From a bacterium (GTDB taxonomy: Bacteria; UBP18; UBA7526): DNA of 13,414 bases. How positions within the stretch are numbered: position 1 is the first letter of the stretch; each line of letters starts with the position of its first letter. The notes under the pieces are model-generated. The model worked only from the letters and a program-made list of their open reading frames with translations. It ran no database searches and was not told where the DNA came from. The stretch spans positions 1-13,414 of the forward strand of contig JAUXAI010000035.1 in assembly GCA_030619985.1 (NCBI GenBank), given 5' to 3'. Shown in pieces: positions 4,657 through 12,704 of this stretch. Both the position numbers and the translations under genes were made by a program.

Positions 4657-5145
4657 TTAGGCTAATTTTCTTACTCTCTTGCTCTTCTTCAAGTTTGCTA
4701 AAAGTTCTAAAATAGATTTTCTCTTCGTGGGATGGATAAGATTTGGTTCCAGTTCCATTAAAGGAATGAGGACGAAGGCCCTCTTGTGCATCTCAGGATG
4801 GGGAATGACTAAATCCTTTGTCTTCAACTTTAGATTGTCACATAAAAGAATGTCTAAGTCAATGGTTCTTGGTCCCCACTTAATAAATCGTCTCTTTCTC
4901 TTTAACTTCTTTTCAATGTCTTTCAGAACGCTCAACAGTTGCCGAGGACTGAGATTGGTTTCTGCTTTCAGGCAGGCATTTACAAACCAATCTTGCTTGA
5001 CATATCCCACTGGTTCTGTCTCATATAATGAAGAGACCTTTAATATTTTGATATCCTTCTTCTTATCTAGTAACTTAACGGCCTTTCTTATATTTGCTCT
5101 TTTTCTTCCCAGGTTAGAACCCAAACCAATATAGACAACGGCCAC
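4657..5145 (-). CDS. folK: 2-amino-4-hydroxy-6-hydroxymethyldihydropteridine pyrophosphokinase
   Basis: FolK transfers pyrophosphate from ATP to 6-hydroxymethyl-7,8-dihydropterin, the step before dihydropteroate synthase in folate synthesis; it acts in the cytosol. With the GTG start the protein is 162 aa, the usual length. It opens VVYIGLGSNLG, continues through TEPVGYVKQDWFVNACL and carries the signature GPRTIDLDILL, whose D96 and D98 correspond to the magnesium-binding aspartates. IPHPEMHKRAFVLIPL follows. I chose GTG at 5145-5143 over the upstream TTG at 5175. A GGGAG ribosome site (5152-5156) lies six bases before the GTG, homology starts there, and the extra ten residues from the TTG would be read partly from the repeat-bearing spacer. 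It follows folB and precedes the importer by 13 bases. Confidence 0.95.
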   Translation of the reverse strand: MAVVYIGLGSNLGRKRANIRKAVKLLDKKKDIKILKVSSLYETEPVGYVKQDWFVNACLKAETNLSPRQLLSVLKDIEKKLKRKRRFIKWGPRTIDLDILLCDNLKLKTKDLVIPHPEMHKRAFVLIPLMELEPNLIHPTKRKSILELLANLKKSKRVRKLA

Positions 5146-5156: not shown

Positions 5157-5173
5157 GTTGGTCGCAAGTCGAC

Positions 5174-5230
5174 AAGTTGATAGGTTAATAAGTTGGTAAG
5201 TTTCTTGTTAACTTGTATACTTGTTAACTT
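5174..5230. repeat. folB/folK spacer: AT-rich short repeats with an 11-bp direct repeat
   Basis: On the plus strand CTTGTTAACTT occurs twice (5204-5214 and 5220-5230), sixteen bases apart. Next to it lie degenerate 8-9-base units AAGTTGATA, GGTTAATA and AGTTGGTA (5174-5198). The repeat ends directly against the folB stop codon (5231-5233). Similar words (AACTTATCAACTTACC) occur in the dapB/TPR spacer at 6947-6962, suggesting a repeat family dispersed in this genome. No promoter or terminator shape is evident. Function is unknown. Confidence 0.7.
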
Positions 5231-5605
5231 CTATTCTGTTTTCTGTCGTCTTATCTCTACTGCCACATAATCCAAAGAGCCCGCCAACTTCACTTGGGGC
5301 TTTTTGGCTCGAACTAGAACCTCTTCTACTTTAAAATTCTTCAGGATCTCTCGCGCAATATCTTGAGCCAGAGCCTCAAGGAGATGATATTTCTTGGCCT
5401 CTATTCTTTCCTTAATCAGACCATAGACCTTCTCATAATCTACTGTCTTTTCTAAATTATCCGTTTGGGTAGCTTCTTCTAAATCAAGAGAAAGTTCCAC
5501 ATCTAAGGAGATCTTCTGCCTTACTTCCCTCTCCTCCTTCTTCACTCCCAGATGGGCATAGAGAATAATGTTCCTTAACAAGATTTTATCTTTTAAACTC
5601 CCCAA
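5231..5605 (-). CDS. folB: Dihydroneopterin aldolase
   Basis: FolB cleaves 7,8-dihydroneopterin to 6-hydroxymethyl-7,8-dihydropterin and glycolaldehyde, giving the FolK substrate. The 124 aa are a normal length for this small tunnelling-fold enzyme. Visible family features are KILLRNIILYAHLGVKKEER at the N-terminus with the conserved acidic residue in KEER, VDYEKVYGLIKERI, HLLEALAQDIAREIL with the pterin-binding glutamate, and VRAKKPQVKLAGSLDYVAVEI with the catalytic lysine next to proline. No ATG is available; TTG at 5605-5603 is preceded by GGAG (5612-5615) six bases upstream. Both the start and this site lie inside the apparent remnant of another gene (5586-5693), so translation initiation here looks secondarily acquired. 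folK follows after a repeat-filled spacer. Confidence 0.93.
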   Translation of the reverse strand: MGSLKDKILLRNIILYAHLGVKKEEREVRQKISLDVELSLDLEEATQTDNLEKTVDYEKVYGLIKERIEAKKYHLLEALAQDIAREILKNFKVEEVLVRAKKPQVKLAGSLDYVAVEIRRQKTE

Positions 5606-5693
5606 ATATATCTCCAGATATCTCCTTTATTCTTTCCCCTTTTACTACTCCATACTTTGCCTTACCTTCAGCCAAAAATCTGGCATATCTCAT
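5586..5693 (-). pseudogene. 5' remnant of a fumarylacetoacetate-hydrolase-family gene (35 codons)
   Basis: A short frame starts with ATG at 5693-5691 and stops at TAA 5588-5586. Its start overlaps the stop of the TPR lipoprotein gene as ATGA, an arrangement typical of a real coupled gene. The peptide begins MRYARFLAEGKAKYG, continues VVKGERIKEI and ends SGDIFGEFKR. This pattern (MRY.RF...GK.+YG...G+.I..I.GDIFGEF) is how members of the fumarylacetoacetate hydrolase / 2-hydroxyhepta-2,4-diene-1,7-dioate isomerase family begin. Such proteins are about 250 aa, so nearly all of the gene, including the metal-binding core, is missing. The homology ends just where folB begins, and the folB TTG start lies inside it in another frame. 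The family call is from memory of the N-terminal pattern. It could instead be a small expressed upstream peptide. Confidence 0.65.
5612..5615 (-). promoter_or_regulatory. Ribosome binding site for the folB TTG start
   Basis: GGAG on the minus strand, six bases before TTG 5605-5603. It is built from codons of the apparent FAH-family remnant (the SGD segment). A second AAGGAG lies slightly further upstream (5622-5627). Confidence 0.55.
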
Positions 5694-6883
5694 CTCAATT
5701 TACTTTGGGCCCTATGAATTGCTGATTGTAAAGCCTGATTCTTTTCCTTGACGGTGCCACCGAATTTTAGTACATAATTGTATTCTTCATTAGCCTTATC
5801 CTGTAATCCTTTCTTTTCGTATGCCCATGCTAACTCTACATGTATCCAGGCAATGAGCCAGGGCGTCTCTGGCTTTTGTTCCAAGGCCTTCTTAAAACTG
5901 GTGATTGCTTGATCATACTTACCTTTAAAATATAAATTTTCTCCTTCTTTGTAATATCGCCAGGCTTCTGTTGTATAGAAACCCTCCTTAGCCAGTTTTT
6001 CTTTCCAATCCTTATATGTTTTAGCAGTTGCTTCAGTCAAAACAAATGAGACTTCTTTTTCTACATCCACTTCCCAACTTTGCTTCCTTTCTTCTCTAAC
6101 GCGCTTATAAATTCTCTTTTCTCCACCAGTAATTTTTCCCTCTATTCTGATAGGTTTTCCTTCCTTATAGGCAAAATAGGTAGTTAGTTCTCTCTTTGTC
6201 TTAAAATCTTTGATAGTTACCTCTGTATTTTTGCCAAATTTTAGAAACAAAACTTTTCCTTTTTGCATGGGTACCTCTATACTTCCCACGCTTAATATCT
6301 TGGCACAGTCATAGTTTCCCAATTTTTCAAAATCTATCAAACTATTTTTAAATTGAATGGTTAGTGGTAGGGTATCAAAGAAAAGAGAGGTTATTTGCAC
6401 ATCGTTCGTCCAGGAATCGCCAACCTTAACCTTTTTCTCTGGCAAAAGAGGGAAGAACTGATCCGTTATGGAGGGCAACCCTAATTCTGCAAATATTGCT
6501 TTACACTCTGCCCAGTTCTTTATCTCTGTTTTCCCATGTTTACTTATCTCCATTAATATTGGCTTATATCTAAAATCGAAGAATTGGCTTGTTATTTCTC
6601 CATTCTTTTCTTCCTCCATCATCTCTTCAATGGTCAGATTGGCCTGGGCTACTCCTTTATTGTCAATATCTTCTATCTTTATTGTTTGATACATTTCTTT
6701 TTTTATACTAACTGTTTCTGGTTTCCTATTAGCCATTTTAAATTCTACTTTTCCCGTTGTTACTTGTTTATATCGCAAGATGTCTCCTTTTTTAACCTTA
6801 TATTCCAACTTTACCCTTTTTACTGCACATCCAAAAACCAGACTCAGACTCAAGAAACTAACCAATATCAAAAACTTTCTCAT
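5690..6883 (-). CDS. Hypothetical lipoprotein with C-terminal TPR repeats
   Basis: I do not recognise a named family. The 397-aa protein starts MRKFLILVSF and has a lipoprotein signal peptide with lipobox VFGC. C19 would be the lipidated residue, placing the protein on the outer face of a membrane. Residues 20-290 are a beta-rich, lysine-rich region opening YKVKKGDILRYKQ, a style seen in secreted proteins of unknown function. From about 303 to 375 there are two TPR-like helical repeats (EAWRYYKEGENLYFKGKYDQ, then an AWAYEKKG...KANEEYNYVL unit), which suggests protein-protein contact. The ATG is preceded by a strong AAGGGGGAG site (6891-6899) at seven bases. It sits between lysine and folate genes without obvious functional link. 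Its stop overlaps the ATG of the FAH-like remnant. Base composition looks more AT-rich by eye than the importer genes. Confidence 0.85.
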   Translation of the reverse strand: MRKFLILVSFLSLSLVFGCAVKRVKLEYKVKKGDILRYKQVTTGKVEFKMANRKPETVSIKKEMYQTIKIEDIDNKGVAQANLTIEEMMEEEKNGEITSQFFDFRYKPILMEISKHGKTEIKNWAECKAIFAELGLPSITDQFFPLLPEKKVKVGDSWTNDVQITSLFFDTLPLTIQFKNSLIDFEKLGNYDCAKILSVGSIEVPMQKGKVLFLKFGKNTEVTIKDFKTKRELTTYFAYKEGKPIRIEGKITGGEKRIYKRVREERKQSWEVDVEKEVSFVLTEATAKTYKDWKEKLAKEGFYTTEAWRYYKEGENLYFKGKYDQAITSFKKALEQKPETPWLIAWIHVELAWAYEKKGLQDKANEEYNYVLKFGGTVKEKNQALQSAIHRAQSKLR

Positions 6884-6890
6884 CCCTTTT

Positions 6891-6899
6891 CTCCCCCTT
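6891..6899 (-). promoter_or_regulatory. Strong ribosome binding site of the TPR lipoprotein gene
   Basis: AAGGGGGAG on the minus strand, seven bases before ATG 6883-6881. It is independent of the palindromic repeats just upstream and fixes the start so that the signal peptide is complete. Confidence 0.65.
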
Positions 6900-6902
6900 A
6901 TA

Positions 6903-6962
6903 CTTATAAACTTATTTCCGCCGAAGGCGGATCAGCCTCTGGCTGAAACTTATCAACTTACC
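6903..6962. repeat. dapB/TPR spacer: two adjacent palindromes flanked by AACTTATC-type words
   Basis: The spacer holds CCGCC-GAA-GGCGG (6918-6930) and, one base on, TCAGCC-TCT-GGCTGA (6932-6946). Both are perfect inverted repeats with three-base loops. Flanking words are CTTATAAACTTATT (6903-6916) and AACTTATCAACTTACC (6947-6962), the latter similar to the folB/folK spacer. The first palindrome core reappears within the 3' end of argG. The two-hairpin design resembles REP/BIME-type intergenic palindromes. A T-run expected of a terminator is absent on the minus strand, so RNA stabilisation or processing is at least as likely as termination. Confidence 0.75.
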
Positions 6963-6967
6963 GACTC

Positions 6968-7771
6968 CTATTTAAGTTTCAGGACATCCTGCATATCGTA
7001 GAGGCCTTTCTTGGCTTTGACTACAAACTTCACTGCCCTCATGGCCCCCTGGGCAAAGGTATCCCGAGAATGGGCACGATGGGTAATCTCTAATCTCTCC
7101 CCGGTTCCCGCAAAGGTTATAGTATGTTCCCCTACAATATCTCCAGCCCGGACAGCATGAATCCCGATCTCCTTCCTTGTTCTCTCGCCAATCGTTCCTT
7201 TTCTTCCATAAACCCCGGCTTCTTTTAAGTTTCTTCCCAATGCCTTGGCTAAAATTTCTGCAATCCTAATGGCGGTTCCGGAAGGAGCATCCTTCTTCTC
7301 CCTGTGGTGGGCCTCAACGATCTCAATATCATAATCATCTCCTAAAACAGGAGCAATATCTTTTACCAATTTAAATAAGAGGTTCACTCCCACGCTCATA
7401 TTGGGAGCCATAACGCAAGGGATCTGGGTAGCAATCTCTTTTATCTCTTTCAGTTGCTCATCGCTGAAGCCCGTTGTTCCAATGACCATGGCCTTGTTAT
7501 GTTCAATGGCCATTCTTAGATGATTTAAGGTAGTATCCGGACCAGTAAACTCAATGAGAACCTCTCCTTCATCGATGATGTGCTCCAAGTCATCGCTTAT
7601 CAGAACCCCTAATTTTCCCAATCCATTTACTTCTCCAGCATCCTTGCCAAAATTGGGATGGCCTTTCTTCTCTAAGGCACCAACTAACTTGATCTCCCCA
7701 TCATTCTTTATTGCTTTTATAATCCTAGCACCCATCCTTCCACAGGTCCCTGATACAACAGCCTTAATCAT
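6968..7771 (-). CDS. dapB: 4-hydroxy-tetrahydrodipicolinate reductase
   Basis: DapB reduces the product of DapA with NAD(P)H, giving tetrahydrodipicolinate for diaminopimelate and lysine. The 267 aa match the family. The N-terminal dinucleotide-binding turn reads VVSGTCGRMG (5-14), with SGTC in place of the common GAAG-like residues but GRMG intact. VIGTTGFS (97-103) is the family GTTG motif. The catalytic signature EAHHREKKDAPSGTA (153-167) supplies H155 and K159 and the substrate-binding SGT. The C-terminal part contains FAGTGERLEITHRAHSRDTF, as usual. The ATG is preceded by TAGGAGGAG within a few bases. It lies 87 bases after dapA; the spacer is filled with short repeats. Confidence 0.97.
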   Translation of the reverse strand: MIKAVVSGTCGRMGARIIKAIKNDGEIKLVGALEKKGHPNFGKDAGEVNGLGKLGVLISDDLEHIIDEGEVLIEFTGPDTTLNHLRMAIEHNKAMVIGTTGFSDEQLKEIKEIATQIPCVMAPNMSVGVNLLFKLVKDIAPVLGDDYDIEIVEAHHREKKDAPSGTAIRIAEILAKALGRNLKEAGVYGRKGTIGERTRKEIGIHAVRAGDIVGEHTITFAGTGERLEITHRAHSRDTFAQGAMRAVKFVVKAKKGLYDMQDVLKLK

Positions 7772-7785
7772 TTTCTCCTCCTAGA

Positions 7786-7858
7786 CGCGAATGGTCGCGA
7801 ATTTATTCGTGTTCTATTTCTTCCGTTTACGCTTTATAGTTCGTGTTAATTCGTGTTA
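7786..7858. repeat. dapA/dapB spacer: ATTCGTGTTA-type repeats
   Basis: On the plus strand a 10-base unit occurs in tandem as GTTCGTGTTA (7839-7848) and ATTCGTGTTA (7849-7858), with a third copy ATTCGTGTTC at 7805-7814. CGCGAAT occurs twice (7786-7792, 7796-7802) and is nearly the inverse of ATTCGTG, so a small hairpin is possible. The tandem pair ends exactly at the dapA stop codon (7859-7861). No function can be assigned. Confidence 0.7.
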
Positions 7859-8731
7859 TTAACTGTAGAAGTCCATCAAGACTTTTTTAAGTTTCTCGAC
7901 ATTCTCTTCGCTCATTGGAGCGAGGGGAAGCCGAAGTTCTGGGGTATCAAGCAGTCCCTGCAGGGCCATGGCAGTCTTCACTGGGCCGGGATTGGTCTCG
8001 ATGAACATAGCCTTACATAAAGGAAAGATCTTATAGTGAACCTCTCTTGCCTTCTCTAAGTTCCCTTTATTGAATTCATCGACCAGGGCCGCCATCTCTG
8101 CCGGGACTAAGTTAGCCACCACAGAGATTACTCCTTTTCCTCCTAAGGCGAGCATGGGAAGAACGATGAAGTCATCCCCAGATATGAGGTCGAACTTTTC
8201 TCCACAGAGTCTTGCGATATCAGAAGCCTGTTTTAGGTCCCCTGAGGCCTCCTTTATTCCCACGATATTCTTTATCTTGGCGAGTTTGGCCACCGTCTCA
8301 GGTAAGAGATTGACGCTTGTTCTTCCCGGAACATTATAAAGAACAATGGGAATGTTTACCTCTTTGGCAATCTTCTCGAAGTGGAGATACATCCCCTTCT
8401 GAGTCGGCTTATTATAATAGGGGGTGATTACTAAGGCTCCGTTTGCGCCAGCTTCTTTGGCATGTTTGGTCAATTTTAGTGCTTCCTCTGTATTATTGGA
8501 GCCGGTCCCGGCAATCACCGGAACCTTTCCCTTTGCTTGATCAATGACTACTTCTACTACCTTCTCATGCTCCTCAAATGACAGGGTGGCACTCTCTCCC
8601 GTTGTCCCACAAGGAACAATAATATCTGTTCCATTCTTGATGTGGAAATCGACCAGTTCCCTTAACTTCTTCTCATCCACCTTTCCCTCTTTAAATGGAG
8701 TAACTAAAGCCACCATAGAACCACTAAACAT
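7859..8731 (-). CDS. dapA: 4-hydroxy-tetrahydrodipicolinate synthase
   Basis: DapA condenses pyruvate with aspartate semialdehyde, the committed step to diaminopimelate and lysine. The 290 aa are the usual length of this TIM-barrel enzyme. It opens MFSGSMVALVTPF and carries CGTTGESATL (41-50) with catalytic T44, TPYYNKP with Y106, LYNVPGRTS (131-139) with Y132 and R137, and GIKEASGD (158-165), where K160 forms the Schiff base with pyruvate. All active-site residues I can place are present. The ATG is preceded by AAGGAGG (8738-8744) at six bases, one of the best ribosome sites in the window, so it can be translated independently of lysA despite the repeat array between them. Confidence 0.97.
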   Translation of the reverse strand: MFSGSMVALVTPFKEGKVDEKKLRELVDFHIKNGTDIIVPCGTTGESATLSFEEHEKVVEVVIDQAKGKVPVIAGTGSNNTEEALKLTKHAKEAGANGALVITPYYNKPTQKGMYLHFEKIAKEVNIPIVLYNVPGRTSVNLLPETVAKLAKIKNIVGIKEASGDLKQASDIARLCGEKFDLISGDDFIVLPMLALGGKGVISVVANLVPAEMAALVDEFNKGNLEKAREVHYKIFPLCKAMFIETNPGPVKTAMALQGLLDTPELRLPLAPMSEENVEKLKKVLMDFYS

Positions 8732-8737
8732 CTCTTA

Positions 8738-8744
8738 CCTCCTT
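8738..8744 (-). promoter_or_regulatory. Strong ribosome binding site of dapA
   Basis: AAGGAGG on the minus strand, six bases before ATG 8731-8729. It lies between the G/C-rich repeat hairpin and the start codon. Confidence 0.7.
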
Positions 8745-8753
8745 AATTTGATA

Positions 8754-8840
8754 GGGGTAGCAGGGGTAACATGGGGCACAGGGGTTACAGGGGGATAACC
8801 CTTGTTACCCCTGTCTCCCTTGCCACCCTTGTCACCCCTG
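8754..8840. repeat. lysA/dapA spacer: convergent 9-bp repeats forming a long imperfect inverted repeat
   Basis: On the plus strand five 9-base units run GGGGTAGCA, GGGGTAACA, TGGGGCACA, GGGGTTACA, GGGGGATAA (8754-8798). They are followed by C-rich units CCCTTGTTA, CCCCTGTCT, CCCTTGCCA, CCCTTGTCA, CCCCTG (8799-8840), largely the inverse. The two arms could pair into a hairpin of about 40 bp. Each arm also has at least four runs of three or more G on one strand with 4-6-base loops, which fits the G-quadruplex pattern; the arm at 8799-8840 is G-rich in the minus-strand transcript. The array begins one base after the lysA stop. It could attenuate or process the message between lysA and dapA, but this is inference. 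Confidence 0.85.
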
Positions 8841-8841
8841 T

Positions 8842-10119
8842 TCATCTTAGCTCTTCGCCCCGGACTAGATCTTCATAGTCTTCTCTTTTCTTAATGATAT
8901 GATATTTATCCTTTTCCACCAGGACCTCTGCCACTTTAGGTCGGGCGTTATAATTGGAAGACATACTGAAGCCATAAGCGCCAGCATCTAAAATGGTCAG
9001 GAGATCACCAAACTTTAATTCTGGCAGTTCCCTGTTTTTAGCGAAATAGTCTCCGCTCTCGCATACTGGACCAACGATATCAACGGTGATCGGTGATCGG
9101 TGACCAGTGATCGGTTTGATAGAAATGATTTCGTGGTAGGCGTTATAAAGTGTGGGGCGGATGAGGTCATTCATCGCCGCATCGACGATGACAAAATTCT
9201 TCTCTTCCGTCTTCTTGATATATAAGACTTTAGTAACCAAGATTCCAGCATTACCAACAATTGCCCTCCCTGGCTCAAGGATTATTTTACATTTCAATTC
9301 TTTAATCAAGGGTAACAGCCTTTCAGCAAACTCTTTAGGAGTGGGTGCTTTCTCACCCTTTTTGTAACTTATTCCCAAACCTCCTCCAATATCCAGATAC
9401 CTTAATTTAATTCCTTCTTTTTCTAATTCCTTTATCAGTTCAACAATTTTTTCCAAACTATCAACAAAGGGTTCTAATTCTGTAATCTGAGAGCCGATGT
9501 GCATATGGATTCCCATAGTCTCGATATTCTTTAGTTCTTCTGCTTTTTTATAGGCTTCTTTCGCCCCCGATATCTCGATGCCAAACTTACTCTTCGCCAG
9601 ACCAGTAGAGATATGAGGATGGGTGTTGGGATTGATGTCTGGATTTATTCTCAAAGCAAGGGATGCCTTCTTCTTTAATTTCCCTGCTATTTTATTAGTA
9701 AGTTCTAATTCTGGGATGGACTCCACATTAAGCAAGAGAATACCTTCTTTTAGTGCATACTTAATCTCGGATGCTGTCTTGCCCACTCCAGAGAAGACTA
9801 TCTTCTTTGGCTCCACTCCTACCTTTAATGCCTTATATAACTCTCCTCCGGAGACGACATCTGCTCCCGACCCTTCCTCTCTTAGGACTTTACAGATAGA
9901 GAGGTTAGAGTTCGCCTTATAGGAGTAGCAGATGAGATGGTCTATCTCTTTAAAAGCCTCGTCAAAGGCTTTATAATTATCTATGATGCTCTTCTGACTA
10001 TAGAGATAGAAGGGGGTTGCTATCTCTTTAGCAATCTCTTCTATCCTCACTCCCTCACAGTATAAATCTCCACCTTTATAATGGAAGTAGTCGTTTACCG
10101 TTAACCGTTTACCGTTCAC
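8842..10119 (-). CDS. lysA: Diaminopimelate decarboxylase
   Basis: LysA decarboxylates meso-diaminopimelate to lysine using PLP. The 425 aa are a normal length. Motifs are YSYKANSN with PLP lysine K68, HMHIGSQ (205-211), YLDIGGGLGI (241-250), EPGRAIVGNAGIL (282-294) binding the PLP phosphate, CESGD (353-357) with the catalytic cysteine, and AGAYGFSMSSNYN near the C-terminus. No ATG fits. GTG at 10119-10117, seven bases after the argH stop, gives a protein whose first nine residues (read VNGKRLTVN) come from a 7-bp repeat, after which family sequence starts at DYFHYKGGDLYCEG. The nearest ribosome site, AGAAAGG, is about 12 bases away, so coupling to argH is likely. Residues about 335-345 (KPITGHRSPIT) are encoded by a second 7-bp repeat. 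Confidence 0.96.
   Translation of the reverse strand: MNGKRLTVNDYFHYKGGDLYCEGVRIEEIAKEIATPFYLYSQKSIIDNYKAFDEAFKEIDHLICYSYKANSNLSICKVLREEGSGADVVSGGELYKALKVGVEPKKIVFSGVGKTASEIKYALKEGILLLNVESIPELELTNKIAGKLKKKASLALRINPDINPNTHPHISTGLAKSKFGIEISGAKEAYKKAEELKNIETMGIHMHIGSQITELEPFVDSLEKIVELIKELEKEGIKLRYLDIGGGLGISYKKGEKAPTPKEFAERLLPLIKELKCKIILEPGRAIVGNAGILVTKVLYIKKTEEKNFVIVDAAMNDLIRPTLYNAYHEIISIKPITGHRSPITVDIVGPVCESGDYFAKNRELPELKFGDLLTILDAGAYGFSMSSNYNARPKVAEVLVEKDKYHIIKKREDYEDLVRGEELR
9084..9115. repeat. 7-bp tandem repeat inside lysA
   Basis: On the plus strand CGGTGAT, CGGTGAT, CGGTGAC, CAGTGAT and CGGT follow in register (9084-9115). Translated on the minus strand this gives part of KPITGHRSPIT, in the loop just before VDIVGPVCESGD. 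As I recall the family, that segment is short and variable, so an in-frame insertion there would be tolerated. The unit resembles the CGGTnAA unit at the start of lysA, but in opposite orientation. Confidence 0.75.
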
Positions 10120-10126
10120 CGTAAAC
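10092..10126. repeat. 7-bp tandem repeat spanning the argH/lysA junction and the lysA start
   Basis: On the minus strand five units follow without gap: GTTTACG, GTGAACG, GTAAACG, GTTAACG, GTAAACG (10126 down to 10092). The first fills the whole spacer after the argH stop. The second contains the lysA GTG start, and the rest encode the first LysA residues. Confidence 0.85.
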
Positions 10127-11467
10127 CTATGCCTTTCTGACTATTTCTTTCCCCTGAGCAATGAGCCTCTTCACACTCTCCTTCGCTGTCCCTCCCAAGG
10201 ACTTCCGGGCAGCGATGCCTGCCTTTACTTTTATAGTATCGAAGACATCCCGACCGAATAATTTAGAGTAAGTCTTGAACTCTTTCAAGGTTAAATCGTC
10301 CAAATCTTTTTTCTTCTTGATAGTCTCTTTCACTAATTTGCTCACTATCTGATGGGCCTTCCTGAAAGGCAGACCCTTCCTCACTAAATAGTCTGCTAAA
10401 TCTGTAGCCATAGAAAAGTCACCCTCCAAAGAGGCCAACATCTTCTTCTTATCTATCTTTACGGTATCGAGCATCTTAGCATAGAGAGATAGAGAACCTT
10501 TTAAGGTATCCACGGTACCGAATAGAGGAATTTTATCCTCCTGCATATCCCGATTGTAGGCCAAGGGCAGAGACTTCATAGTAGTCAGTAAGCTCATCAG
10601 GTTCCCATAGACCCTTCCTGTCTTTCCCCTTATCAACTCACAGACGTCTGGATTCCTTTTCTGGGGCATGATGGAAGAGCCAGTAGTAAAGGGATCGGCA
10701 AGTTCGATAAAGCCGAATTCTTTGCTCGAGAAGAGGATGAGTTCCTCACTGAGCCGGGAGAGATGCATCATAATCAAAGAAGCATCGGCTAAGAACTCAA
10801 TAATAAAGTCCCTATCCGATACGGCATCCATGCTGCTTTGAACTACCTTGGAAAAGTCCAAAAGGCGGGCCGTATATTCCCGATCAGTAGGATAAGAGGT
10901 TCCTGCTAAAGCAGCTGCTCCCAGGGGAGAGACATTCACCCGATCAAAGGTATTCAAGAGCCTCTCCCAGTCCCTGTCGAGCATGAAGAAATAAGTCATT
11001 ATCCAATGAGAGAAGAGTATGGGCTGGGCATGCTGGAGGTGAGTATACCCAGGCATAATGGCATCTATATTCCTCTCCGCCACTTTAAGAATACTCTTTT
11101 GCAAATTCCTGATTAACTTTGCAATCTCCTTTATCTCATCCCGCAGGAAGAGGCGCATATCCAAAGAAACTTGATCGTTTCGACTCCGTGCAGTATGAAG
11201 CTTTGCTCCTATGTCCCCGATCTTCTCTATGAGCCTCTTCTCAATGTGGGTATGGATATCTTCCAAAGAAAGGTTAAACTTAAATTTTCCGGTTTTTATT
11301 TCCTTCTCTATCTCCTTCAAGGCCTTAACAATCCTTTTCCCTTCAGAGTCCGTGATAATCTTACACTTGGTAAGCATCTTGGCATGGGCGATGGAGCCCT
11401 GAATGTCATATTTATAGAGCCTCTTATCAAAGGAGATGGACTCCAGAAACTCTTCTATTTTTTTCAT
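10127..11467 (-). CDS. argH: Argininosuccinate lyase
   Basis: ArgH splits argininosuccinate to arginine and fumarate, the last arginine step; it is a homotetramer of the fumarase/aspartase superfamily. Motifs are LEDIHTHIE (68-76), HTARSRNDQVSLD (91-103), MPGYTHLQHAQP (138-149) and the superfamily signature GSSIMPQKRNP (263-273) with the catalytic serine. The 446 aa are slightly short. The protein begins MKKIEEFLESISFDKRL, aligning to the family only from the ..EEF.ASISFD+RL part. The usual N-terminal LWGGRF segment (about 11 residues) is missing, and reading upstream in the same frame gives no such motif. The start has AAGGAG (11475-11480) at seven bases, encoded by the last codons of argG. 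It is one base from argG and seven from lysA. Confidence 0.96.
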   Translation of the reverse strand: MKKIEEFLESISFDKRLYKYDIQGSIAHAKMLTKCKIITDSEGKRIVKALKEIEKEIKTGKFKFNLSLEDIHTHIEKRLIEKIGDIGAKLHTARSRNDQVSLDMRLFLRDEIKEIAKLIRNLQKSILKVAERNIDAIMPGYTHLQHAQPILFSHWIMTYFFMLDRDWERLLNTFDRVNVSPLGAAALAGTSYPTDREYTARLLDFSKVVQSSMDAVSDRDFIIEFLADASLIMMHLSRLSEELILFSSKEFGFIELADPFTTGSSIMPQKRNPDVCELIRGKTGRVYGNLMSLLTTMKSLPLAYNRDMQEDKIPLFGTVDTLKGSLSLYAKMLDTVKIDKKKMLASLEGDFSMATDLADYLVRKGLPFRKAHQIVSKLVKETIKKKKDLDDLTLKEFKTYSKLFGRDVFDTIKVKAGIAARKSLGGTAKESVKRLIAQGKEIVRKA

Positions 11468-11468
11468 A

Positions 11469-12704
11469 CTATTTCTCCTTTGCCGCCTTCGGCGGCACCC
11501 CGCCTTTTGGCGGTGGCGCTATCTTTGCCTTTACTTTTATGGGAAGGCCCAAGATCTCTATGAAGCCCTTAGCCAATTTCTGATCGAAGATATCTCCCTT
11601 GCCATAGGTGGCCAGGGCCTGGCTATAAAGAGAATAAGGAGACTTTCGACCAACGACGATACAATCTCCCTTATAGAGCTTGAGTCTCACAGTTCCTGTG
11701 ACATTTTCCTGGGTCTTTTCGATAAAAACGTCCAGAGCTTTCTTTAAGGGAGAATGCCACATTCCGCTATAGATTAGTTCGCTGTACTTTTTATCAACCA
11801 ATGCCTTAAACTCTAATGTCTGGCGAGTAAGGGTTAAATTCTCCATTTCCTTATGGGCCAGATAAAGAATCCTTCCTGCTGGTGCCTCATATATCTCCCT
11901 GGATTTTATTCCCACCACCCGGGATTCAATATGATCTACACGACCAACTCCATTCGCTCCCCCAATCTCGTTCAGTTTAGCGATCAAATCTATTGGTTCA
12001 TACTCTTTACTATCTATCTTCTTAGGAATCCCATTCTCAAAATCAATCTCTAAGTAAGTGGGTTTATCTGGTGCTTTCTCTGGCGAAGTAGTTAGCTGAT
12101 AGATCTCCTCTGGCGGCTCCTTCCAAGGGTCTTCTAAGACACCGCATTCAATGGAGACCCCCCAGAGATTCCTATCAATACTGTAAGGACTCTCTTTGGT
12201 TATTTTTAGGGGAATATCGTGCTTCTTGGCATAATCCATCTCCTCTTCCCTGGTCTTAAGTTCCCACTCCCTTACTGGAGCAAGGACCTTCATATCGGGT
12301 GCTAAAGCAGCAATTGAAATCTCAAAGCGCACCTGGTCATTCCCTTTTCCTGTACAACCGTGAGCCACCACATCTGCCTTCTCTTCCTTGGCCACTTTTA
12401 CTAATGATTCTGCGATCAATGGTCGGGATAGAGCAGTAGCCAATAGATACTTATCCTCATAGATGGCATTGGCACATAATCCTTTAAAGACAAAGTCCCT
12501 TACAAACCTCTCTTTCAAATCCTTTACTACTACCTTCTCTGCCCCGATCTTCGCTGCCCTCTTCTTAGCATCCTCCAGATCCTCTCCCTGACCTAAGTCA
12601 GCCAGAAGAGCGGTTACTGGAACTTTATACTTCTCCTGTAACCATTTCAGGATTACAGAAGTATCCAGTCCCCCAGAATATGCTAGAACAATCTTTTTAA
12701 TCAT
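11469..12704 (-). CDS. argG: Argininosuccinate synthase
   Basis: ArgG joins citrulline and aspartate with ATP to argininosuccinate. The 411 aa are slightly long for the bacterial type. The N-terminal pyrophosphatase-loop AYSGGLDTS (8-16) binds ATP, and AHGCTGKGNDQVRFE (114-128) is the second family signature. EWELKTREEEMDYAKKHDIP and a YSIDRNLWGVSIECG segment are also typical. The last 16 residues, APPPKGGVPPKAAKEK, look like an added tail. They are encoded by two GC-rich palindromes (11482-11513) and carry the argH ribosome site. The ATG (12704-12702) shares one base with the argF stop (TAATG) and has GGGAGG six bases upstream. Confidence 0.97.
   Translation of the reverse strand: MIKKIVLAYSGGLDTSVILKWLQEKYKVPVTALLADLGQGEDLEDAKKRAAKIGAEKVVVKDLKERFVRDFVFKGLCANAIYEDKYLLATALSRPLIAESLVKVAKEEKADVVAHGCTGKGNDQVRFEISIAALAPDMKVLAPVREWELKTREEEMDYAKKHDIPLKITKESPYSIDRNLWGVSIECGVLEDPWKEPPEEIYQLTTSPEKAPDKPTYLEIDFENGIPKKIDSKEYEPIDLIAKLNEIGGANGVGRVDHIESRVVGIKSREIYEAPAGRILYLAHKEMENLTLTRQTLEFKALVDKKYSELIYSGMWHSPLKKALDVFIEKTQENVTGTVRLKLYKGDCIVVGRKSPYSLYSQALATYGKGDIFDQKLAKGFIEILGLPIKVKAKIAPPPKGGVPPKAAKEK
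11482..11513. repeat. GC-rich palindromes within the 3' end of argG
   Basis: GCCGCC-TTC-GGCGGC (11482-11496) is a perfect inverted repeat, followed by CCGCC-TTTT-GGCGG (11500-11513). The first shares the core CCGCC(GAA/TTC)GGCGG with the intergenic palindrome at 6918-6930. Both lie inside the reading frame and encode the unusual PPPKGGVPPKAA tail. They sit two bases upstream of the argH ribosome site on the transcript and might influence argH translation. Confidence 0.8.

Follow-up and report, generated by a model that had tools for sequence, protein, structure and literature searches.

Repeat arrays at gene junctions of a UBP18 bacterium as probable ORF-less relatives of small S23- and GxxExxY-bearing elements

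Short tandem repeats are common in the spacers of bacterial operons sampled from uncultured lineages, and a 13,414-nucleotide stretch of DNA from a bacterium of the lineage UBP18, UBA7526 (contig JAUXAI010000035.1 of assembly GCA_030619985.1; hereafter the window) raises the question of where they come from and why they lie so close to stop codons. All genes with assigned functions in the window are on the minus strand, in the order argF-argG-argH-lysA-dapA-dapB-TPR (tetratricopeptide repeat) protein-folB-folK, followed by an importer, and several junctions between them are occupied by short-period arrays built from different units. These arrays recur in other spacers, face empty sites in sister genomes, share families with elements that bear an open reading frame (ORF), occur in three allelic states, are biased in orientation and extend across phyla, and they probably derive, as copies or remnants without an ORF, from a class of small mobile elements.

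The window arrays, all read on the minus strand and themselves without an ORF, follow the upstream genes very closely. The base directly after the folB stop TAG (5231-5233) opens (AAGTTAAC)(AAGTATAC)(AAGTTAAC), a series of 8-bp units that leads to the inverted arm CTTACCAACTTATTAACC in the folB/folK spacer (5170..5230), while the dapA stop TAA (7859-7861), which is itself in register with a TAACACGAAT unit, is followed by the 10-bp units TAACACGAAT TAACACGAAC and the inverted arm ATTCGCGACCATTCGCGTC (dapA/dapB array, 7778..7861). After the lysA TGA (8842-8844) comes ACAGGGGTGACAAGGGTGGCAAGGG, belonging to an array of 9-bp units (ACAGGGGTG/ACAAGGGTG) with an inverted arm that forms a strong hairpin (lysA/dapA, 8749..8841), and the argH TAG (10127-10129) is followed by the 7-bp units GTTTACG, GTGAACG, GTAAACG, GTTAACG and GTAAACG (argH/lysA, 10085..10126), within which the likely GTG start of lysA (10119) falls. 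The dapB/TPR array begins 5 bases after the dapB TAG and is broken up by two nested GC-rich palindromes, TCAGCCAGAGGCTGA and TCCGCCTTCGGCGGA (6917..6946), into a stop-proximal half-array, GGTAAGTTGATAAGTTT (6937..6962, including the first nested bases), and a start-proximal one, AATAAGTTTATAAGTATAAG (6897..6916). Another 7-bp array (9084..9115) lies in frame inside lysA and encodes KPITGHRSPITV. A preliminary description of this DNA, which did not include the lysA-internal array, had placed the onsets zero to two bases after the stops of folB, dapA, lysA and argH and about five after that of dapB, which is accurate, the former lying at the first base in each case; its palindromes and its unit lengths of 10, 9 and 7 bp also stand, but the folB/folK unit given there as 11 bp is one of 8 bp. 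Its remark that the importer half, with overlapping genes, is devoid of repeats holds in the window.

Arrays of this kind are frequent and exceed chance by a wide margin. Genes were called with a purpose-built hexamer-based caller on sampled stretches covering 472 kb and 490 genes of the genome to which the window belongs (G000), 355 kb of G001 and 196 kb of G002, the last two being congeners, and all genomes compared are incomplete metagenome-assembled genomes (MAGs). With arrays called at a score of at least 12 in co-directional spacers of 30-400 bp, 29.8% (G000), 38.4% (G001) and 28.9% (G002) of spacers bear one, against 0.09-0.21% of dinucleotide shuffles, frequencies that are possibly slightly high given that part of the sample was picked around S23/GxxExxY genes. 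Six of the seven query segments from the window recur among 607 other spacers: folB/folK in 37, argH/lysA in 30, the stop-proximal half of dapB/TPR in 29, dapA/dapB in 24, the lysA-internal array in 23 and lysA/dapA in 7, where about 0.6 is expected for each; the start-proximal half of dapB/TPR alone has no significant match among these spacers. The units of 7-10 bp are many and mutually unrelated, and no single palindrome with a conserved head underlies them. Apart from that half-array, the window units are thus present elsewhere, and the several repeat families envisaged in the preliminary description are indeed distinct and genome-wide.

The arrays arrived by insertion. Four related MAGs share the operon, with dapA 91-96% identical, and carry different repeat families at dapA/dapB, lysA/dapA and folB/folK. 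The folB/folK junction is empty in G001, where the genes overlap by 1 bp; the lysA/dapA junction is empty in L009/G002 and holds other array families in L010, L011 and L012; the argH/lysA array is missing from these same three loci, in which argH and lysA overlap; and the nested dapB/TPR palindromes are missing from L008, where a TGCGTTTA array stands instead. More broadly, 339 orthologous junction comparisons include 55 in which a site that is empty or overlapping in one genome (at most 25 bp) exceeds 40 bp in the other, 45 of 183 immediate-neighbour orthologous junctions differ by the presence or absence of an array, and, when both genomes carry arrays (19 junctions), 10 are clearly unrelated in family. 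Empty sites, differing families at one junction and full elements are therefore all present among the sister genomes.

Insertion also reaches into coding sequence. A surface loop of lysA carries inserts that are always in frame, made of CACCGAT units in the window and L009, GTCCAAA in L010 and CGAACTC in L012, or of a palindromic insert of about 90 bp in L011, and the inserts of L010, L012 and L011 are unrelated to the window array. Such repeated insertion into a small target suggests a hotspot or direct family-for-family replacement. Additionally, dapA of L012 (CSMAG_2709; 8001-8903) contains ASGLEGPLARK, an in-frame insert of 11 residues that is a possible further intragenic element remnant.

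What the arrays belong to can be seen at the dapA/dapB junction, which is ORF-less in the window, L009 and L010, and in L008 and L012 holds a GxxExxY-family ORF that is flanked by ACACGGATAG arrays and inverted copies of them. In a complete element, which spans about 0.5-0.6 kb, a short-period array with units of 7-10 bp and an inverted array enclose one small ORF. This ORF encodes an S23/IVP four-helix-bundle protein (PF05635), a GxxExxY nuclease of PD-(D/E)XK type (PF13366) or, occasionally, a GIY-YIG nuclease, of which one gene with the same type of flanks is an example. Six genomes of the phylum contain 2-10 PF05635 matches each, some of them fragments, and each of three congeners has 3-6 PF13366 genes. 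The upstream and downstream flanks of 30 S23/GxxExxY genes are complementary to a median of 27, as opposed to 14 for 918 other genes (p 1e-14; p 7e-12 with size-matched control genes), and the ORFs are under purifying selection, with ratios of nonsynonymous to synonymous substitution of 0.053 and 0.027 in the two orthologous pairs with measurable synonymous divergence.

The ORF-less arrays of the window share families with the flanks of such genes, five of six queries exceeding a null of 200 shuffles, a correspondence that the preliminary description had missed. The folB/folK array and the flank of an S23 gene of its own genome (G000:C42:68408) agree at 26 of 26 bases, the lysA/dapA array matches the flank of another (G000:C42:70098), the argH/lysA and lysA-internal arrays match the S23 flanks L212 in G004 and L200, respectively, and the dapA/dapB array matches GxxExxY flanks, with L255 as the best; the S23 ORF is present in full-length relatives. 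Moreover, one orthologous junction is found in three states, with an S23 element in the window's own genome (L154), an ORF-less array of the same family in G001 (L175) and a 4-bp gene overlap in G002, and the counterpart in G001 of the GxxExxY element L159 (own genome) is an array of similar sequence without an ORF. Even beyond the phylum, the S23 element L236 of Omnitrophota is 72.6% identical over 500 bp, arrays included, to L155 of the own genome, and its two ends match the L175 spacer, from which the ORF is missing, at 89% and 79%.

A second class of elements, of about 100 bp, has the ends CCCCGCACCTT..AAGGTGCGGGG or TCCCGTTAGACCT..AGGTCTAACGGG and is represented by L163 and L278 in G001, L095 in the own genome, and L011. 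It occupies the start codon of the next gene, with ATGAA/GTGAA apparently repeated on both sides, and its right end provides the ribosome-binding site. One copy, L278 (G001:C35:39292), encloses a GIY-YIG nuclease ORF.

The class is neither confined to one phylum nor random in orientation. S23 genes are found in 22 of 26 genomes of other groups, which include Omnitrophota, Nitrospirota, Planctomycetota, Bacteroidota, Elusimicrobia and Deltaproteobacteria, often several to a genome and often with broken copies. Inverted flanks of many unrelated units recur (p 1e-9) in a set of 58 elements drawn from two sister-genus genomes and from other phyla. All 30 elements with both neighbours called are sense to both, and in other phyla 35 of 39 lie on the strand of the upstream gene. 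Nearly all neighbouring genes are co-directional in any case, but half of the insertions able to land in either direction would still be expected to run antisense. Behind the bias there may be an RNA step, or no more than selection for expression by read-through.

Why, then, do the arrays abut stop codons? Measured over 224 arrays, the median distance is +5 from the stop for the left edge and 24 bp to the next start for the right edge, and 102 begin at or before +3. For arrays placed at random in their spacers the expectation is 31, or 73 (maximum 85 in 1000 draws) once 15 nt are set aside for a ribosome-binding site. In 23% the array begins 4 bp or more within the preceding gene, whose last codons or stop it then provides. 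The preference for stop codons is genuine yet modest, and strict targeting of the stop codon is rejected, the excess being only modest once the ribosome-binding site is reserved. Most of the regularity arises because the elements occupy gaps that measure just a few bases when empty, and because selection spares the start side. The excess of repeat edges at stops anticipated in the preliminary description is consequently present, although much of it amounts to tight packing, and of its suggestion that repeat families expand in, or insert at, the 3' ends of genes, insertion stands, the 3'-end preference stands in part and in-place expansion does not.

The series of events that we envisage is as follows. 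An element would enter the tiny gap between the stop of one gene and the ribosome-binding site of the next, in sense orientation, its movement putatively driven by the ORF product and its expression supplied by the host operon; loss of the ORF, presumably by deletion, would then leave the fused arms behind as a spacer. On this reading, abutment has three sources, namely the small size of the gap when empty, the frequent presence of TAA, TAG or TGA in the units themselves, and the purging of insertions that wreck a ribosome-binding site or truncate a gene.

Several observations weigh against this reading. Of the 30 S23/GxxExxY genes, 8 do not rise above the 95% level of controls for inverted flanks, the match of the dapB/TPR array to an S23 flank is no more than suggestive (p 0.06), and in other phyla the excess of periodicity is weak (45% versus 34%, p 0.02). 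The target-site overlaps inferred at 40 junctions are broad, from -63 to +44 with a suggestive cluster around 4-12, so that duplications are not clean. Alleles with and without the ORF belong to different families at several junctions, and therefore replacement or repeated insertion is needed. As for machinery, none of the element proteins (S23, GxxExxY, GIY-YIG) is a proven mobilisation enzyme, and a search confined to Y1 transposases and reverse transcriptases (RVT_1) found neither type in six genomes of the phylum (0/6 for each), one of them 93% complete. Spread via a host reverse transcriptase is rejected on that ground. The reverse transcriptase that marks group II introns, diversity-generating retroelements (DGRs) and retrons is thus not found in these genomes; S23 is weakly similar to the DGR accessory protein bAvd.

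Among other explanations, the one that survives best holds that the arrays are independent mobile hairpins or hotspots, used by S23/GxxExxY elements as landing pads in the way that 23S intervening sequences (IVSs) use rRNA helix tips. In its favour, one and the same junction can hold differing families and cargo across sisters, S23 IVSs reside in rRNA helices (PMC4990558), and GC palindromes are nested within the dapB/TPR array. Array family nevertheless tracks protein type, with 49 of 64 nearest neighbours agreeing against 33 under permutation (by inspection, CAC(A/G)GA-like flank units go with GxxExxY and others with S23), and the combination of array and S23 gene is conserved between phyla, which makes this explanation unlikely. 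It is still less probable that replication slippage and inverted template switching made the arrays where they now stand, in spacer DNA free of constraint, and that the S23/GxxExxY ORFs arrived later by chance. Short-period tandem structure is the expected product of slippage, and array edges and copy numbers do differ between sisters, but one family is found at dozens of loci, with a perfect match over 26 bases to the flank of an S23 gene, the sequence gained at empty sites is unrelated and 60-500 bp long, and whole units of array and ORF are common to different phyla. Simple in-place expansion is not supported as the origin of the arrays.

A role as selected regulatory elements at operon junctions, such as terminators, mRNA stabilisers or translational switches, appears a little less probable again. 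The lysA/dapA array does fold to -57.6 kcal/mol (z -5.5), and TAACTGA heptamers ahead of start codons have been proposed as translational regulators (PMC4679880); the folds of the remaining window arrays, in contrast, are no more stable than those of shuffles (z -1.9 to +0.8), and orthologous junctions differ too often in array presence and, where both bear arrays, in family. A structured RNA function is rejected, the window having no Rfam match or tRNA and a single unusually stable array. Finally, mobilisation of REP/REPIN-like repetitive extragenic palindromes by a RAYT (Y1) transposase is hardly credible and this identity is rejected. Many dispersed palindromes with a few gene-bearing copies do resemble that organisation (PMC3116915), but no Y1 transposase was found in the six genomes and the units vary by family with no common head.

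The ORF-less copies and remnants proposed here can also be compared with known systems. Their nearest relative is the 23S IVS with S23p (PF05635), which is likewise small, with terminal inverted repeats around a sense S23 ORF; in Coxiella, tandem GACAGAT heptamers lie just upstream of that ORF (PMC4990558). Unlike 23S IVSs, the present elements lie between or inside protein-coding genes, comprise many families, are often ORF-less and may carry GxxExxY or GIY-YIG in place of S23. The copies examined in detail are all between protein genes and none inside 23S rRNA, the location from which RNase III excises IVSs; the sole 23S gene found spans 3017 bp, against a model of 2925 positions. REPIN/RAYT systems and miniature inverted-repeat transposable elements (MITEs) likewise combine many short non-autonomous palindromic spacer copies with a few larger ORF-bearing ones, and the folB/folK and lysA/dapA arrays are MITE-like in having terminal inverted repeats, no ORF and dispersed families. 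Their ORF-bearing partners carry S23, GxxExxY or GIY-YIG in genomes where no Y1 or RVT_1 was found, and overlaps of 4-12 bp at many of the 40 junctions stand within a broad spread. The arrays differ from both in that no Y1 was found, the ends are short-period arrays of unrelated units and there is no clean target duplication. The TAACTGA arrays of Beggiatoaceae, Cyanobacteria and Bacteroidetes are also intergenic, short in period and patchy in taxonomy, and some overlap upstream stops, but they consist of one fixed heptamer, mostly ahead of starts, and the available text of PMC4679880 mentions no linked ORF; none of the window units AAGTTAAC, TAACACGAAT, ACAAGGGTG and GTAAACG is TAACTGA. Multi-copy GxxExxY genes (PDDEXK_3, PF13366) are of the same protein family and number several per genome, and here they lie sense within gene junctions, usually bounded by inverted arrays. 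In the literature searched just two papers name GxxExxY and, by title and abstract, neither concerns junction elements; in their available text, neither PMC4990558 nor PMC4679880 connects S23 or GxxExxY cargo with multi-family arrays between genes. No description of the link between arrays and these proteins was found in the open-access literature searched, which takes in few subscription papers and no preprints, and an earlier description may exist.

With regard to genomic context, the window is contig C81 of a MAG of 1.25 Mb, 84% complete and in 91 contigs. On its minus strand lie folK (4657..5145, TIGR01498; start from the gene caller), folB (5231..5605, TIGR00525), dapB (6968..7771, TIGR00036), dapA, the upstream gene at the dapA/dapB junction (7859..8731, TIGR00674), lysA (8842..10119, TIGR01048) and argH (10127..11467, TIGR00838), and the importer parts were identified from their own sequences. 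Strand order within contigs is unusually strong, with 448 of 456 neighbouring gene pairs co-directional in the sampled stretches of G000. GC-rich GCCGCC palindromes at 11470-11515 encode a C-terminal tail of argG (PPPKGGVPPKAAKEK) that L009 does not have. In G002, the sbp/permease junction of L185 (G002:C79) holds a short-period array, TTGAACATTGAACAATTAACAATG, where the syntenic window junction is a 4-bp overlap; the L185 importer is a different paralogue, at 29-44% identity.

Within one genus, tiny insertions thus remodel not only operon junctions but also the N- and C-termini of proteins and, in lysA, a surface loop of the enzyme. Going further, we tentatively raise the possibility, which we regard as somewhat doubtful, of a mobile class that extends over many phyla and lacks any known transposase or reverse transcriptase, whose mobile ends would be the short-period inverted arrays and whose mover would be one protein, S23 or GxxExxY, acting perhaps by way of the host transcript, given that insertion is almost always sense; 23S IVSs would then be one branch of this class and much unexplained spacer repeat DNA its debris. 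Spacer arrays of heptamer-like and 8-10 bp units are common in the uncultured bacteria sampled and seldom explained; S23 and GxxExxY are abundant protein families with no known established role. The link between them offers a single testable origin for the spacer repeats, points to maintenance or mobility of the elements as what the proteins may do, and joins both to the question of how 23S rRNA intervening sequences arose.

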